Position numbers and translations under genes: made by a program. The notes beneath the pieces are model-generated. The model had not been told where the DNA came from. It did no database searches and saw only the letters and a list, made by a program, of their open reading frames with translations. A stretch of DNA of 41,379 nt from Candidatus Poribacteria bacterium (lineage in GTDB: Bacteria > Poribacteria > WGA-4E > PCPOR2b), in the NCBI GenBank assembly GCA_021295755.1, contig JAGWBT010000010.1, positions 1 to 41,379 of the forward strand. Direction: 5' to 3'. Below are positions 1,126 through 32,679 of the stretch, one piece after another. Within the stretch, counting starts at the first letter, position 1. The number at the start of each line of letters is the position of its first letter.

Positions 1126-2580
1126 ATGGTGGACAAAGCTTATCTTCTTAGCGACGAAGAGATTCGGGATTTTATTGTCAGCGGGCATATCCAAATTCAA
1201 GCTGATTTTCCGACCGATTTTCACGGACACATCTACCAGCAGATCGAAGAAGTACTTGCGAAGGAAGGCAATCCGGGAAATAACTTACTGCCTCGGATTC
1301 CTGATATTCAGCGAGTTTTCGAGCATCCGAAGGTGTGTGGGGCGTTGACGAGTCTGTTAGGTCCAGATTACCTGATCCATCCCCATCGCTACTGCCATCT
1401 TAACTCGCCGGGGAGCGACGGACAAACTTGGCATAAGGACGATTATATATTTGACCAGAAGGTTCGTCACCACCGCTTTCGATGGGTGATGGCTTTCTAC
1501 TATCCGCAAGATGTCACCGAAGACATGGGACCGACAGGGGTCTTACCCGGAAAGCAGTATTACAACACGGTTTCGGACACGAACCCGACGCAAAGCACTG
1601 AGTGGGCAAAAGCCCTTTGTGGAAAGGCGGGCACGGTGACAATTGTGAATTTCGATTCGTGGCATCGAGCGACAGCGAATCGTAGCGACAAAAGACGTTA
1701 CATGCTGAAGTTTCAGTTCACACGGATGCAGGAACCATCTCAATCTCTATCGGGTGACGGACATACGCCCTGGCAACCTGCAGATAACGACAAACATGAG
1801 GCATTATCAAGGAATGTTTGGAAATGGCTCGCTCAAAGCAATGGTGGGGATTCAACGCACGTCGCACCCGACGAAAATGGCTCTGTGTCACAACTGATAG
1901 CGGGACTACGAGATACCGATGAGAGTGTTCGTCTGACTTCGGCTTATGCGCTAGGGGGCATGGGTGAATCCGTCGTGCCAGCACTAATGGAAGCGCTACA
2001 AGAAGAAGCCGAGGCTTTGGCGGAAACAAACGTTGCAAAAACTGCGGCGAATCCACAAGGTGGTAATCCAGCCGATCTCTACTCTGCTCAAGCGTTGACG
2101 GAGGTGGGACAGTCCAGTATACCGGCATTGATTTCAGCGTTAGATGATGTGTCTTGGCCCACCCGTGCGGCAGCCGCGGATACGCTGGGCAATCTAGGTT
2201 CGCATGCGGAAGAGGCTGTGTCACCATTGATTCAGGGGCTGCGTGATGAGAGTTCGTGGGTCCGCCGTAATGCAGCGGAGGCGTTAGGAATAATTGCGAC
2301 ACCTGCCGAAGATATTGTTCCAGCGTTGATGCAGGTCTCAAGCGACTCGGAGATGCTGGTTCGACTCAACGCGATGATGGCACTCGCAAAAATTGGTCAA
2401 TCGGCAGATGGTATCGTGCCAACATTGGCGGGAAGGTTAAGCGATGAGGACCGGTATGTTCGTTACTATGCGGCTGCGGTATTGCGGCAGATCGGAACGC
2501 CCGAGGCACAAGATGCTTTATGGGACGACCTGTTGACCGCCCGCTGGTGTCCTATAACAACAGCGGAGAACCCCTATTGA
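1126..2580 (+). CDS. Phytanoyl-CoA dioxygenase (PhyH)-like enzyme fused to HEAT repeats
   Basis: A 484-residue fusion. Residues 1 to about 205 form an Fe(II)/2-oxoglutarate dioxygenase of the PhyH family, which hydroxylates small substrates while turning 2-oxoglutarate into succinate and CO2. The iron ligands are visible: H103-x-D105 in TWHKDDYIF and H180 in FDSWHRA, with basic residues at 186-191 suited to bind 2-oxoglutarate. Residues about 250-470 are four to five HEAT or PBS-lyase-type helical repeats with the recurring pattern of V-R, A-A-x-A-L-G-x-(I/L)-G and PAL(I/M). An acidic linker separates the halves. The start is an ATG preceded by purine-rich AAAGGAAAAAGGAA. The HEAT part could dock a partner protein or substrate carrier. 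The substrate is unknown. Confidence 0.85.
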   Translation: MVDKAYLLSDEEIRDFIVSGHIQIQADFPTDFHGHIYQQIEEVLAKEGNPGNNLLPRIPDIQRVFEHPKVCGALTSLLGPDYLIHPHRYCHLNSPGSDGQTWHKDDYIFDQKVRHHRFRWVMAFYYPQDVTEDMGPTGVLPGKQYYNTVSDTNPTQSTEWAKALCGKAGTVTIVNFDSWHRATANRSDKRRYMLKFQFTRMQEPSQSLSGDGHTPWQPADNDKHEALSRNVWKWLAQSNGGDSTHVAPDENGSVSQLIAGLRDTDESVRLTSAYALGGMGESVVPALMEALQEEAEALAETNVAKTAANPQGGNPADLYSAQALTEVGQSSIPALISALDDVSWPTRAAAADTLGNLGSHAEEAVSPLIQGLRDESSWVRRNAAEALGIIATPAEDIVPALMQVSSDSEMLVRLNAMMALAKIGQSADGIVPTLAGRLSDEDRYVRYYAAAVLRQIGTPEAQDALWDDLLTARWCPITTAENPY

Positions 2581-19522: not shown

Positions 19523-19992
19523 TTATAGGTTGAGATTCATATTCTTAGACAGGTGGCTAAAGGTCATTGAGCGATACCGACCTTCACCTTTGAAGCGTGG
19601 GAAGCCGGGTGCTTCACCTGCTCGGACACGCCGAAAGAACGATTGGTAGGCTTTATCCAGACGGCGTAGGGTATCTTGCAACACGTCAATGTGCAGCATA
19701 TCAAAAGTGCTGGATGTCTGACGCAATTCGGGTAAGGTATTCGCCTGCGTAACCCAACTGACAGATTCGCCTGTTTTGTTGTAAACCTCTTTGCGCCAAG
19801 ACAATCCTTGATTGTATAGGTTTCGCAAGGCCTCAAGCCATGTAAGCAGCACTTTAGTTTGCTTAAAGGTCGGATATATCCGATATTGGTAGGTTTTAAT
19901 CATGGGATTTGGCTTTCTCAACGCCTGTCAGATGTTATCTAACAAACTTTTGTGTCCTGTAGCAAAGGGGTTGGGAGCACCGCCGAGCGGTG
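19403..19992 (-). mobile_element. Decayed IS200/IS605-type element with a truncated tnpB
   Basis: The truncated TnpB frame is bracketed by two perfect hairpins of the kind found at IS200/IS605 ends: 19978-19992 (CACCGC, 3-base loop, GCGGTG) upstream of the gene and 19403-19421 (GGGTTGG, 5-base loop, CCAACCC) downstream. Downstream of the frame the minus strand has a GGAATCTCACGCC stretch that resembles right-end sequence of such elements. The exact borders are not defined. No tnpA is present. Confidence 0.45.
19523..19921 (-). pseudogene. tnpB: TnpB (OrfB, IS605 family), N-terminal fragment
   Basis: This 132-residue frame matches only the N-terminal part of TnpB, the RNA-guided nuclease of IS200/IS605 and IS607 elements and ancestor of Cas12. 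Typical segments are TYQYRIYPTFKQT, LLTWLEALRNLYNQGL, VLQDTLRRLDKAYQSFFRR and GFPRFKGEGRYRSMTF. It stops shortly after that point (NMNLNL), so the RuvC-like catalytic aspartate and glutamate and the zinc finger are missing. A complete TnpB has about 370-400 residues. The true start may be the seventh codon (MIKTYQYRIYP). It cannot be an active nuclease. Confidence 0.85.
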
Positions 19993-20113
19993 GCGTGATA
20001 CCTCCTACCAAAGCTAACCGACATTATACTATGTTTTCACTCATATTACCATAAAAAGAGAGACGCAGTTTCCTCTACGCACTAAAGTACGGGTGCTCCA
20101 CTGCGAAGATTTG

Positions 20114-21250
20114 ATGAATCTGACAGAACAGATTAAGGTTCAGGCACAAAAACTTGGATTTGAATTGGTTGGCATCCTCCCCGTTGAACCGAGCCAGACG
20201 GTTGACCATTACGAACAGTGGTTGAAAGATGGTCATGCAGGAGAGATGGATTATTTAGAAAAGCATCTGTCATTGAAGCGAGATCCGCGCCAGATCCTTC
20301 CCGAAGCCCAATCAATCGTCGCGCTCGCGATTAATTACTACACGCTTGACCCACCTAAATCACTTGCGGAAGACTCATCGCGCGGACAGATTTCTCGATA
20401 CGCGTGGGGAACGGATTATCACCGTCTTATCCGCTTGAAATTAGATCGGCTGGCGACATTTATCCAAAAGGCTGCCGAAGAAAAGGTTAAAACTAGGGTT
20501 TATGTAGATACCGCTCCGGTCCTTGAGCGGGAGTACGCTGAACGTGCGGGAATCGGGTGGATTGCTAAAAACACAAATGTAATCCACTGGCGGGCAGGCT
20601 CTTGGTTTTTTCTCGGAGGCATTCTAGTCAGCATCAAGTTGGATACGGACGTACCATTGCTCCGTGGAAGTTGTGGCACCTGCACCCGCTGCATTGAGGC
20701 GTGCCCCACAGATGCGATCTTAGCGCCCAATATTTTGGATTCTCGGCTGTGCATTTCCTACCTTACTATTGAGTTGAAAGGGAGCATCCCACACAAGCTC
20801 CGCCCACAGATGGATAATCTAATCTTCGGTTGCGACATCTGTCAGGAAGTCTGCCCCTGGAACAGTAAAGCGGTACCGACAAAGGAACGCGATTTTTATC
20901 CTCGCAAGGGAAACCTCGCACCCACGCTGCTATCACTTATAAACATGACACAGGAACAATTTAGTAGACGTTTTAGGCACAGTCCAATCAAGCGAGCGAA
21001 GCGACGCGGCCTTCTCCGAAATGTTGCGGTTGCGCTTGGCAACTGGAAGGATCGCGCTGCGGTGCCTGCCCTTAAACAGGCGTTGAACGATGACGAATCC
21101 CTAGTTCGTGGTCATGCTGCATGGGCATTAGGGCAGATTGGCGGTAAAGCGGCAAGAAAAGCATTACAAACGCGTCTAGACACGGAAGTTGAGACAGAAG
21201 TTATTACAGAGATTAAAGATGCACTGAACCAAAATTTTTCCAAGGATTAA
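20114..21250 (+). CDS. queG: Epoxyqueuosine reductase
   Basis: A 378-residue cobalamin-dependent iron-sulfur enzyme that reduces epoxyqueuosine to queuosine in tRNA anticodons, the last step of that pathway. Two 4Fe-4S motifs are plain: CGTCTRCIEACPTDAI and CDICQEVCPWN. Upstream are the family segments RYAWGTDYH, VDTAPVLERE (with the proposed catalytic Asp) and AGIGWIAKNTN. The C-terminus, from about residue 295, is a HEAT-like repeat (AAVPALKQALNDDESLVRGHAAWALGQIGG), usual for the longer members. I place the start at the ATG that gives MNLTEQIK; a GTG 7 codons earlier is possible. The enzyme needs B12, as does NrdJ further along. Confidence 0.93.
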   Translation: MNLTEQIKVQAQKLGFELVGILPVEPSQTVDHYEQWLKDGHAGEMDYLEKHLSLKRDPRQILPEAQSIVALAINYYTLDPPKSLAEDSSRGQISRYAWGTDYHRLIRLKLDRLATFIQKAAEEKVKTRVYVDTAPVLEREYAERAGIGWIAKNTNVIHWRAGSWFFLGGILVSIKLDTDVPLLRGSCGTCTRCIEACPTDAILAPNILDSRLCISYLTIELKGSIPHKLRPQMDNLIFGCDICQEVCPWNSKAVPTKERDFYPRKGNLAPTLLSLINMTQEQFSRRFRHSPIKRAKRRGLLRNVAVALGNWKDRAAVPALKQALNDDESLVRGHAAWALGQIGGKAARKALQTRLDTEVETEVITEIKDALNQNFSKD

Positions 21251-29549: not shown

Positions 29550-31172
29550 CTACGAACATCCACTCGTCGCACCGCAATTCAAACAGCGATAACAGGTGCC
29601 GTTCCGCACCATGATTGTCCCGCAATCATGACAGGGAGGGGCATCTGACTGCATCGCTGCGACGCGTTTTTCGCGCGCTTCTAGTCTTTGGGCGCTTTCC
29701 TCCTGATTGATGTCATCTCCATAAGGGTGCAGCTGCTGTGGCTGGGTAAGCTGATCGCCAAGGCTTCCGTCTCCCTCGGCAAGCACTTCGCTTTGGGGCA
29801 CGAATTTCAGTCCTAGCCAGCGGAATACATAGTCGATGATTGACTTTGCTATTGGGATATCCTTATTGTTGGTAAATCCCGCAGGCTCAAATCCGACGTG
29901 ACTGAACTTGCTGACCAGTGATTCCATCGGAACACCGTATTGTAACGAGATTGAGGTCATTGTCGCGATCGTATCCATCAATCCAGAAATAACAGAGCCT
30001 TCCTTCGACATCTTGAGGAACACCTCGCCGGGGCTGCCATCTTCATAAAATCCAACGGTAATGTAACCTTCGTGACCCGCAACACTGAATTTGTGGGTGA
30101 TTGAATCGCGTTCATTGGGCAGACGACGGCGGATGGGGCGCGTTTCCTGTTCCTCTTCCTCCACTTCCGCTCTGGTGGTGCTGAGAGGTTGCGACAGTTT
30201 CGATCCATCCCGATAGAGCGCTACCGCCTTCAATCCCAGTTTCCATGCCTCAACGTAAAGGTTCTCGACCTCTTCAACCGTTGTTTCGTGGGGCATGTTG
30301 ATGGTTTTGGATATCGACCCACTCAGAAATGGCTGCGTTGCAGCCACCATGCGAACATGCGCCATCGGCTCAATGTAACGCTGACCGTAATTCCCACATT
30401 TGTTGGCGCAATCAAAGACAGGTAGGTGTTCATCTTTCAGATGCGGTGCACCTTCGATGGTCATCATACCACAAATTACCTTGCTTGCTTCTTCAATTTG
30501 CTGCTGTGTAAATCCCAATTCACTCAATAGATCAAAGCCCGGCGCGTTATATTTTTCTGGGCCAAATCCGAGACGCGCCATCCCTTCCTCTCCGACAGTG
30601 TAGGCGTTAAACGCATGCGCCAGCTCAAAAACGGAGGATAGCGTCGCTTCGATCTGACCGATCTCTTCGTCAGTCAAACCCTTCTCTTTAAGTGAGACAT
30701 TATTGATATGCGCCGAACCGATTAGCGAGGAAGTACCTTGCACATAGGTTACAATGTCGTCAATCTCTTTGTCTGTATAACCGAGCTTTTTCAGTGCGCG
30801 TGGTACCGATTGGTTGATAATTTTGAAGTAACCGCCGCCCGCCAACTTCTTGAATTTCACAAGCGCAAATTCGGGTTCAACGCCGGTCGTATCGCATTCC
30901 ATCAGTAGCCCTATGGTACCGGTAGGCGCTAGCACCGTTGCTTGTGCATTCCGATAGCCGTAGCGCTCACCCATTTCAACCGCATCATCCCATGTCTGTT
31001 GTGCTGCCTTCAAAAGGTTAGGTGGGCAGACATCTGGGTTAATGCGATAGGCTGCGGAACGATTCGCGGTTCTTATCGAAACTGGGGAAGGGACCTTTGA
31101 CCGCAGCCATCTCAGCGGATGCCCGATACGCTTCACCACAGAGGATTGCTGTAAGCGCACCGGCGATGGCAT
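29550..31172 (-). CDS. nrdJ: B12-dependent ribonucleotide reductase, C-terminal fragment (frameshifted)
   Basis: This frame holds the second half of the class II reductase. The homologous part begins at about AAYRINPDVCP (near 31055); the residues before that, from 31172, are out-of-frame sequence. It contains ATVLAPTGTIGLLMECDTTGVEP, the barrel strand that carries the phosphate-binding PTGT, then NMPHETTVEEV, a TSCPD-type domain (GSPGEVFLKMSKEGS), and the C-terminal cysteine cluster CHDCG...CYRCLNCGATSGCS, which relays electrons to the active site. On its own it lacks the radical cysteine and cobalamin-side residues. It needs fusion to the frame at 31039-32679 to make a working enzyme. Confidence 0.9.
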   Translation of the reverse strand: MPSPVRLQQSSVVKRIGHPLRWLRSKVPSPVSIRTANRSAAYRINPDVCPPNLLKAAQQTWDDAVEMGERYGYRNAQATVLAPTGTIGLLMECDTTGVEPEFALVKFKKLAGGGYFKIINQSVPRALKKLGYTDKEIDDIVTYVQGTSSLIGSAHINNVSLKEKGLTDEEIGQIEATLSSVFELAHAFNAYTVGEEGMARLGFGPEKYNAPGFDLLSELGFTQQQIEEASKVICGMMTIEGAPHLKDEHLPVFDCANKCGNYGQRYIEPMAHVRMVAATQPFLSGSISKTINMPHETTVEEVENLYVEAWKLGLKAVALYRDGSKLSQPLSTTRAEVEEEEQETRPIRRRLPNERDSITHKFSVAGHEGYITVGFYEDGSPGEVFLKMSKEGSVISGLMDTIATMTSISLQYGVPMESLVSKFSHVGFEPAGFTNNKDIPIAKSIIDYVFRWLGLKFVPQSEVLAEGDGSLGDQLTQPQQLHPYGDDINQEESAQRLEAREKRVAAMQSDAPPCHDCGTIMVRNGTCYRCLNCGATSGCS

Positions 31173-32679
31173 ATCCTTCTTCGCTGTCGTAGGGGATACC
31201 GTTGACCATCAGCAAAGTTCCCAGATTGGCATATCCCAGTCCGAGTGGTCGATAGTCGTGGCTGTTTTGAGCGATTGGCCCGGTTGGATAGGAGGAGAAA
31301 TCCACAAGGATTTCCTGACCGATGAAGAAGATTCGGCAGGCATGCTTGAACCCTTCGACATCAAAGTTTCCATCTTCATCGACGAATTTGAGTAGATTGA
31401 TAGAAGCGAGATTACATGCGGAGTCGTCAAGGAACATATATTCTGAACATGGATTACTGCTATAAATTCGATCGGTATTCGCGCAAGTATGCCAGTCGTT
31501 AATCGTCGTGTCAAACTGCATACCTGGATCCGCACAAGCCCAAGCGGCTTCGGAGATTTGACGCATGAGATCTTTGGCTTCAAATGTTTCACAGATTTCG
31601 CCCGTTGTACGGAACGTTGTATGCCATTTATCACCGCGTAGATAGGCATTCATGAATTCGTCCGTGATTCGGACAGAGTTATTTGAGTTTTGCCCTGAGA
31701 CGGTCTTATACGCTTCCCCATTGAAGTCAGAGGGATAACCAGCAGCGACAAGCGCTGCTACTTTCTTTTCCTCATTCACCTTCCAGTTGATGAAATCAAC
31801 GATTTCCGGGTGATCCATATCGAGGCATACCATCTTGGCCGCGCGTCTGGTAGTCCCTCCAGATTTGGTCGCCCCTGCCCCACGGTCAAAAACCTCAAGA
31901 AAAGACATCAGTCCGCTACTTGTCCCACCGCCGGAGAGTTTTTCTTGCCGCCCTCGAATCTTGAAAAAATTCGTTCCGGTCCCTGAGCCGTACTTAAAGA
32001 CACGCGCCTCATTTTTGACCAACTGGAAAATCGACATCAGGTCATCGTCAACAGCCTGTATGAAGCACGCACTGCATTGTGGGTGGTCGTAGTTATTCTC
32101 CGTCTGGACCACACTGCTCTTTTCAACGTCCCAATACCAGTTGCCGGTTCCGCCTGTAACTCCATATAGATGATATAGTCCACAATTAAACCAGACCGGC
32201 GAATTAAACGCACCGCGCTGCATCACGAGCAGGTCTGTCAGTTCCATCTCAAAAGCATCAGCATCCTCCGGTGTGGCAAAGTAGCCACCAAAAGCTTCGC
32301 CGGCATGGCGGATGGTATGCGCAACACGTTGGACGAGTTGACGAACGCTTGTTTCGCTATCCGTTTCAGGCACACCCGCTTTACGGAAATATTTGGACAC
32401 CGCAATATCCGCTGCCAACTGTGACCAGTTCGATGGGACCTCAACCTCATTTTTCTCAAAGATTGCCTCGCCTTTTTCATTATAGATCACCGAACTTCGA
32501 GGTTCCCACTCGATTGTATCGAATGGATGCACACCGGGCAAGGTATACCGTCGATCAATTTTCAAGCCCTGTTGTTGTGCAGTTTCTTCAAGAGAAGAGG
32601 GTTTGATGTCAGCAGTTTCATCCGATGGCACGGCGGCTATTGAATCCTGATTAACACCAAAATCGTTGGTTTGGGACAT
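31039..32679 (-). CDS. nrdJ: B12-dependent ribonucleotide reductase, N-terminal fragment (frameshifted)
   Basis: The first 546 residues of adenosylcobalamin-dependent (class II) ribonucleotide reductase, which converts ribonucleotides to deoxyribonucleotides for DNA synthesis without needing oxygen. Active-site parts are present: the redox cysteine in PQCSACFIQ, the glycine-rich KYGSGTGTNF, the NPCSE motif with the radical Cys, Asn and Glu, and the partner Cys in SACNLASINLL. The frame runs properly to FPSFDKNRE and then shifts, ending in a short false tail (SFRSLSH). About ten family residues that normally link this point to AAYRI are absent, so this looks like a small deletion. AAAGGA lies before the ATG. 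nrdR is 131 bases upstream. Confidence 0.92.
   Translation of the reverse strand: MSQTNDFGVNQDSIAAVPSDETADIKPSSLEETAQQQGLKIDRRYTLPGVHPFDTIEWEPRSSVIYNEKGEAIFEKNEVEVPSNWSQLAADIAVSKYFRKAGVPETDSETSVRQLVQRVAHTIRHAGEAFGGYFATPEDADAFEMELTDLLVMQRGAFNSPVWFNCGLYHLYGVTGGTGNWYWDVEKSSVVQTENNYDHPQCSACFIQAVDDDLMSIFQLVKNEARVFKYGSGTGTNFFKIRGRQEKLSGGGTSSGLMSFLEVFDRGAGATKSGGTTRRAAKMVCLDMDHPEIVDFINWKVNEEKKVAALVAAGYPSDFNGEAYKTVSGQNSNNSVRITDEFMNAYLRGDKWHTTFRTTGEICETFEAKDLMRQISEAAWACADPGMQFDTTINDWHTCANTDRIYSSNPCSEYMFLDDSACNLASINLLKFVDEDGNFDVEGFKHACRIFFIGQEILVDFSSYPTGPIAQNSHDYRPLGLGYANLGTLLMVNGIPYDSEEGYAIAGALTAILCGEAYRASAEMAAVKGPFPSFDKNRESFRSLSH

Follow-up and report, generated by a model that had tools for sequence, protein, structure and literature searches.

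A gene in the window (the whole stretch of 41,379 nucleotides analyzed here) encodes a 484-residue protein that, judged from its sequence, is an Fe-dependent oxygenase of the PhyH superfamily with a C-terminal stack of HEAT repeats. The reading frame (1126–2580, + strand) is uninterrupted, and relatives with the same architecture occur in other genomes. We favor, at close to an even chance, a model in which the HEAT solenoid is a built-in part of the enzyme, a lid or clamp, rather than a docking scaffold. In this model, the six-repeat solenoid would be the permanent second half of an Fe(II)/2-oxoglutarate oxygenase and would most likely pack over the opening of the oxygenase barrel. There, conserved HEAT residues, joined in the majority of members by a terminal Arg-Trp pair, could help to form or close the substrate pocket, much as in QueG. 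The oxygenase half would hydroxylate or oxidatively demethylate a small molecule, probably in the cytoplasm, as the N-terminus does not look signal-like by eye.

Domain layout and predicted fold

The oxygenase domain spans residues 1–238 (1126–1839, + strand) and matches the Pfam PhyH profile PF05721 at residues 63–191 (E 5e-13), with a score of 50.2 bits against a curated cut-off of 22. The Fe-ligand pattern HxD...H is present: His103 and Asp105 of the H103-K104-D105 motif (1432–1440, +) and the distal His180 (1663–1665, +) are predicted to bind Fe(II), and Arg191 (1696–1698, +), about 11 residues past the distal histidine, is predicted to bind 2-oxoglutarate. His103 and Asp105 are kept in 105/105 fused family members complete at these positions, from a sample of 106, and His180 and Arg191 are kept in 106/106.

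The HEAT half comprises six repeats and a C-terminal helix at residues 252–471 (1879–2538, +), as assigned from Pfam, the helices of an AF2 model, and the repeat register; counted by eye together with predicted helices, repeats and cap reach from residue 252 to residue 484, and helix pairs start near residues 252, 282, 331, 361, 396, and 428. PF13646 (HEAT_2) matches five stretches over residues ~250–470 (E 1e-37), and the HEAT, HEAT_PBS, and HEAT_EZ profiles match the protein too. The last helix carries a tail that ends RWCPITTAENPY, and an Arg-Trp-Cys motif lies at residues 473–475 (2542–2550, +). An earlier note, made from the DNA letters, had described a PhyH-type dioxygenase with four to five HEAT repeats; the combination is borne out by a single reading frame in which Pfam finds both domains, but the number of repeats is slightly higher, six plus a cap.

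An AF2 model built on 20 sequences had a pTM of 0.82 and a mean pLDDT of 74. The HEAT part was modeled well, whereas the active-site loops and the tail had pLDDT values below 50; the conservation pattern fits a placement of HEAT residues that reach the active site. The oxygenase half of the model, with these low-confidence active-site loops, resembles GriE, FtmOx1, OkaE, and the proline hydroxylase H11 (Z 11.9–12.8; 183–203 residues aligned with rmsd 3.3–4.1) and is thus predicted to have a double-stranded β-helix fold. The solenoid half matches alphaRep and natural HEAT/ARM proteins with Z scores of 12–15.7. A sequence search of solved structures gave HEAT-type matches only (E 0.01), and a viral-model search gave just two matches below E 0.001, both PhyH proteins of fewer than 300 residues.

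The likeness to known members of the PhyH superfamily (PF05721; GriE, FtmOx1, OkaE, proline hydroxylase H11, PHYHD1) lies in the predicted fold and in the HxD...H...R set, to which the protein in the window adds the C-terminal solenoid. To our knowledge, the solved members of the superfamily end after the barrel. The same type of HEAT repeat is found in the HEAT/PBS-lyase proteins CpcE/F, NblB, and deoxyhypusine hydroxylase, and we know of no PhyH barrel in any of these.

Distribution and origin of the fusion

Sixteen relatives emerged when species genomes were searched, every one with the PhyH-HEAT architecture and collinear with the window protein (16/16), at 47–90% identity. Fifteen were matched from residue 1–6 through the last residue, and the other ends with its contig. 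By record name, seven are from Poribacteria, five from Latescibacterota/Latescibacteria, and four from Gemmatimonadota/Gemmatimonadetes; because the genomes with Latescibacterota and Gemmatimonadetes records group together, we count three phyla and claim no spread into Gemmatimonadota proper. An assembly artefact or a chance join of two genes might be suspected, as those relatives that carry a name have titles that mark them as metagenome assemblies and the window's genome (5.0 Mb) is in 257 contigs. Collinear fused relatives across three phyla, including some in single-contig genomes, refute this idea, to which we give next to no credence. The grounds for refutation named in the earlier note, a frameshift or chimeric assembly and an architecture confined to this one place, both fail, as the fusion is real and recurs in other genomes. 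By these sequence comparisons, the protein is neither chimeric nor unique and belongs to a conserved family found in Poribacteria and in uncultured bacteria related to them.

Matches to a full-length profile at E 1e-40 or better were present in 78/84 Poribacteria genomes (52/55 of those of high quality) and in 16/16 and 46/64 genomes of the two further phyla, counts in which a weak best match (e.g., 5e-64 in genome G131) may be HEAT-less, coverage being known among the matches listed. Six genomes in the set of 16 and three in the set of 64 had themselves pointed to these phyla; without them, the counts are 10/10 and 43/61. Several copies per genome are common, and some are in tandem. At locus L005 (G000:C113), one copy in a cluster of such genes is broken into ORFs of 144 and 336 residues and runs into N.

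For residue-level comparisons, we used 92 loci, where 110 ORFs had a match to the PhyH half with a threshold of E 1e-30. Both domains are held by 106/110 of these ORFs, all distinct and at 91 loci, a share that is biased upward because loci were picked by matches to the full profile; the remaining four are two HEAT-less genes and the two fragments at L005. Dereplication of the fused set for evolutionary tests left 61 sequences. Pairwise distances in the PhyH and HEAT halves of these proteins correlated (Mantel r 0.80), with none of 2000 permutations as high and the top one at 0.19; the two halves co-evolve. In a midpoint-rooted tree of PhyH domains from the 61 fused proteins, three HEAT-less close relatives, and 13 other PhyH proteins of one genome, the fused and HEAT-less proteins formed one clade (support 0.91) apart from the other 13, and the three HEAT-less relatives (support 0.99) were sister to all fused members, a pattern that fits one fusion.

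We consider it plausible, if somewhat short of an even chance, that one ancient fusion gave rise to a separate class of 2-oxoglutarate oxygenases in at least three uncultured phyla, that this class multiplied within genomes, and that a HEAT lid or clamp over the barrel sets substrate choice through conserved residues and, in most members, the Arg-Trp tail. The window's genome (G000, 5 Mb) has at least 152 PhyH matches at E 1e-5, with 150 of 229 candidates scored, whereas only 1/14 control genomes has any PhyH match. The abundance and diversity of poribacterial PhyH proteins, with a very high copy number for the same phylum and Pfam domain, are reported by Kamke et al. (2014; PMC3909097), whose main text reports no HEAT fusion (the word 'heat' occurs 0 times). 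A study of nucleoside demethylases related to PHYHD1 (PMC12709175) mentions Candidatus Poribacteria and Gemmatimonadota sequences that resemble its enzyme FJS and that may or may not belong to the fused subfamily. Within the searchable literature, which comprises titles and abstract openings and leaves most subscription journals outside, we found no description of a PhyH-HEAT fusion, and to that extent the HEAT-fused architecture appears to be new within a known superfamily. Conservation, presence in 78/84 of the phylum's genomes examined, a diagnostic architecture, and a small number of residues to test make the family a tractable entry point.

Role of the HEAT half

Several observations bear on whether the solenoid contributes to the active site. 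First, Tyr274 in the HEAT half is invariant (106/106), and Arg-Trp occupies positions 473–474 in 90/106 members, the other 16 having a gap there, in one case because the contig ends. The full Arg-Trp-Cys sequence occurs within the last 40 residues of 88/106 members. In the window protein, repeat 2 has an insert between its helices with a clade-specific NPxGGNP motif; 17/106 members show this motif, and 67/106 have just three residues at that place. As there are members that lack them (18/106 for the Arg-Trp-Cys tail; 67/106 for a longer insert), neither feature can be essential to all. Second, three residues of the PhyH half, His33, Asn52, and Trp234, show no variation among dereplicated fused members (61/61), but the three HEAT-less sisters have asparagine, aspartate, and a residue other than tryptophan, respectively, as expected if these side chains were part of a domain interface. 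Asn52 and Trp234 are not confined to the fusion, because five and seven, respectively, of the 13 PhyH proteins that represent other subfamilies of the same genome have them, whereas His33 is absent from 11 of the 13 (the 11 in which the residue is known). Third, there is precedent for such a role in epoxyqueuosine reductase, QueG, whose catalytic domain is likewise followed by HEAT repeats. The QueG structure report (PMC4646009) describes an insert between the helices of the first HEAT repeat as carrying active-site residues, and the concave face as packing against a loop. QueG differs in having an unrelated catalytic domain, three HEAT repeats, and a tRNA substrate, and its TIGR00276 profile has no match in the PhyH-HEAT protein at E 0.1. 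If the HEAT half does form part of the active site, then this family together with QueG would provide a further case of a solenoid that serves as an active-site wall, beyond its use as a binding platform.

The same window holds a QueG gene (20093–21250, +; TIGR00276). The C-terminal 90 residues of its product are basic (+5), whereas the PhyH-HEAT solenoid has a net charge of –18, and the HEAT half is at –5 or below in 97/106 family members. This acidity argues against nucleic acid binding, and a nucleic acid substrate is disfavored.

HEAT repeats usually bind proteins, and the solenoid could instead be a scaffold that brings a partner protein, or a protein or carrier-bound substrate, to the oxygenase. 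The best solved-structure matches of the HEAT half are alphaRep binders, the tandem fused paralogues in several genomes might pair with each other, and the HEAT half is more variable than the PhyH half (mean entropy 1.92 versus 1.37 bits), a lower conservation that a docking scaffold fits too. Set against these points, no partner gene recurs across clades among the loci examined, 33/103 of the genes have no co-directional neighbor within 200 bp, and the P-loop gene discussed below is a neighbor at just 5/92 loci, in one genus. The carrier-bound or protein substrate that the earlier note had proposed gained no positive support: no carrier-protein family is present among 25 of the 62 neighbor families, and the solved oxygenases of nearest fold have free amino acids or alkaloids as substrates according to their structure titles, although a protein substrate stays compatible with the data. 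Taken together, we view docking as possible but rather unlikely and prefer the model in which the solenoid is a lid or clamp of the enzyme itself.

Gene neighborhood and substrate

The gene directly upstream (420–1076, +), which the earlier note had suggested as a partner, is a real P-loop gene. A model of low confidence (mean pLDDT 61) predicts for its product a fold of the nucleoside-monophosphate-kinase type, and a profile of its family gave nothing below E 0.02 in a search of solved structures. The family is present in 65/84 genomes. The adjacency stood at five loci, each time with the P-loop gene directly upstream and always within the window's genus, but conservation of the neighbor did not, as the gene is missing from the other 87 PhyH-HEAT loci. 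The genus has one more genome, the sixth, in which each of the two genes sits at the end of a contig. A HEAT-fused PhyH gene was absent from all 17 further P-loop loci examined, and we reject the P-loop protein as a general partner.

The canonical Walker A sequence GxxxxGK[ST] is degenerate (GCEYSGTT) in the P-loop protein of the window and its five genus orthologues. Threonine replaces the Walker A lysine in 6/6 genus copies; other aligned members have lysine (13/14) or valine (1/14). The P-loop protein is thus a candidate pseudo-kinase. Within the genus, the two genes might form a kinase-oxygenase pair, with a phosphorylated substrate or regulation by the pseudo-kinase. The gap of 30–50 bp that is kept at all five loci with both genes, the genus-wide change from a lysine that is retained in nearly all other members, and an ordinary PhyH gene within two genes at 5/17 of the other P-loop loci would all fit such a pair. 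PhyH genes are so abundant, however, with at least 152 matches in the window's genome, that adjacency is not rare; two of the five ordinary-PhyH loci (L108 and L109) come from one genus; and the fused oxygenase manages without a P-loop neighbor at 87 loci. We regard the pairing as improbable. At L108 and L109, the ordinary PhyH gene lies between two P-loop paralogues and beside a gene that by eye looks sulfatase-like.

Gene order in the window's genus is aldo/keto reductase, P-loop gene, PhyH-HEAT gene, and then a convergent ABC transporter gene; in the window, the 3' end of the co-directional aldo/keto reductase gene is at 2–361 (+; PF00248). Homologues of this reductase are also found in the upstream chain at L031, L032, L034, and L035; at L102 and L151, a homologue is the immediate upstream neighbor of a PhyH-HEAT paralogue. 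In genus g10, a gene for a binding-protein-dependent ABC permease precedes the PhyH-HEAT gene or tandem pair at 9/11 loci (at one of them with a DNA methylase gene between), and six of these loci have a solute-binding protein and two permeases in a 200-bp chain, as identified by Pfam. We take this transporter to be of the sugar type. A Gfo/Idh/MocA-type gene directly precedes the fused gene at L036, L037, L039, L040, L046, L154, and L155 (Pfam for the representatives L036, L046, and L154).

These linkages raise the possibility that the enzyme oxidizes an imported carbohydrate derivative in the uptake or breakdown of sugar-like compounds, which would be compatible with either role of the HEAT half. 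The ABC transporter linkage in genus g10 points in this direction, as do Gfo/Idh/MocA, aldo/keto reductase, 3-keto-disaccharide hydrolase, and MR/MLE or FAH-type genes that adjoin in other clades. No neighbor family was significantly enriched over controls from the same loci, however, in a comparison of 55 dereplicated neighbors (one being the PhyH-HEAT fragment at L005) with 100 dereplicated control genes: Gfo/Idh/MocA genes were 4/55 versus 5/100 (Fisher P 0.72), aldo/keto reductases 2/55 versus 3/100 (P 1.0), and PhyH genes 6/55 versus 4/100 (P 0.17). Genes of these families turn up at a similar frequency in other parts of the loci, so the neighborhood gives no general substrate. We therefore dropped sugar catabolism as general neighborhood evidence, the transporter linkage in a single genus alone standing, and hold a sugar-like substrate to be a doubtful if reasonable candidate.

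Two further features of the window were observed. The coding sequence of a B12-dependent ribonucleotide reductase is divided between two overlapping ORFs at 29550–31172 and 31039–32679 (– strand), with a frameshift that is either real or from assembly, and a short ORF at 19523–19921 (–) presumably resembles the N-terminus of an IS605-type TnpB.
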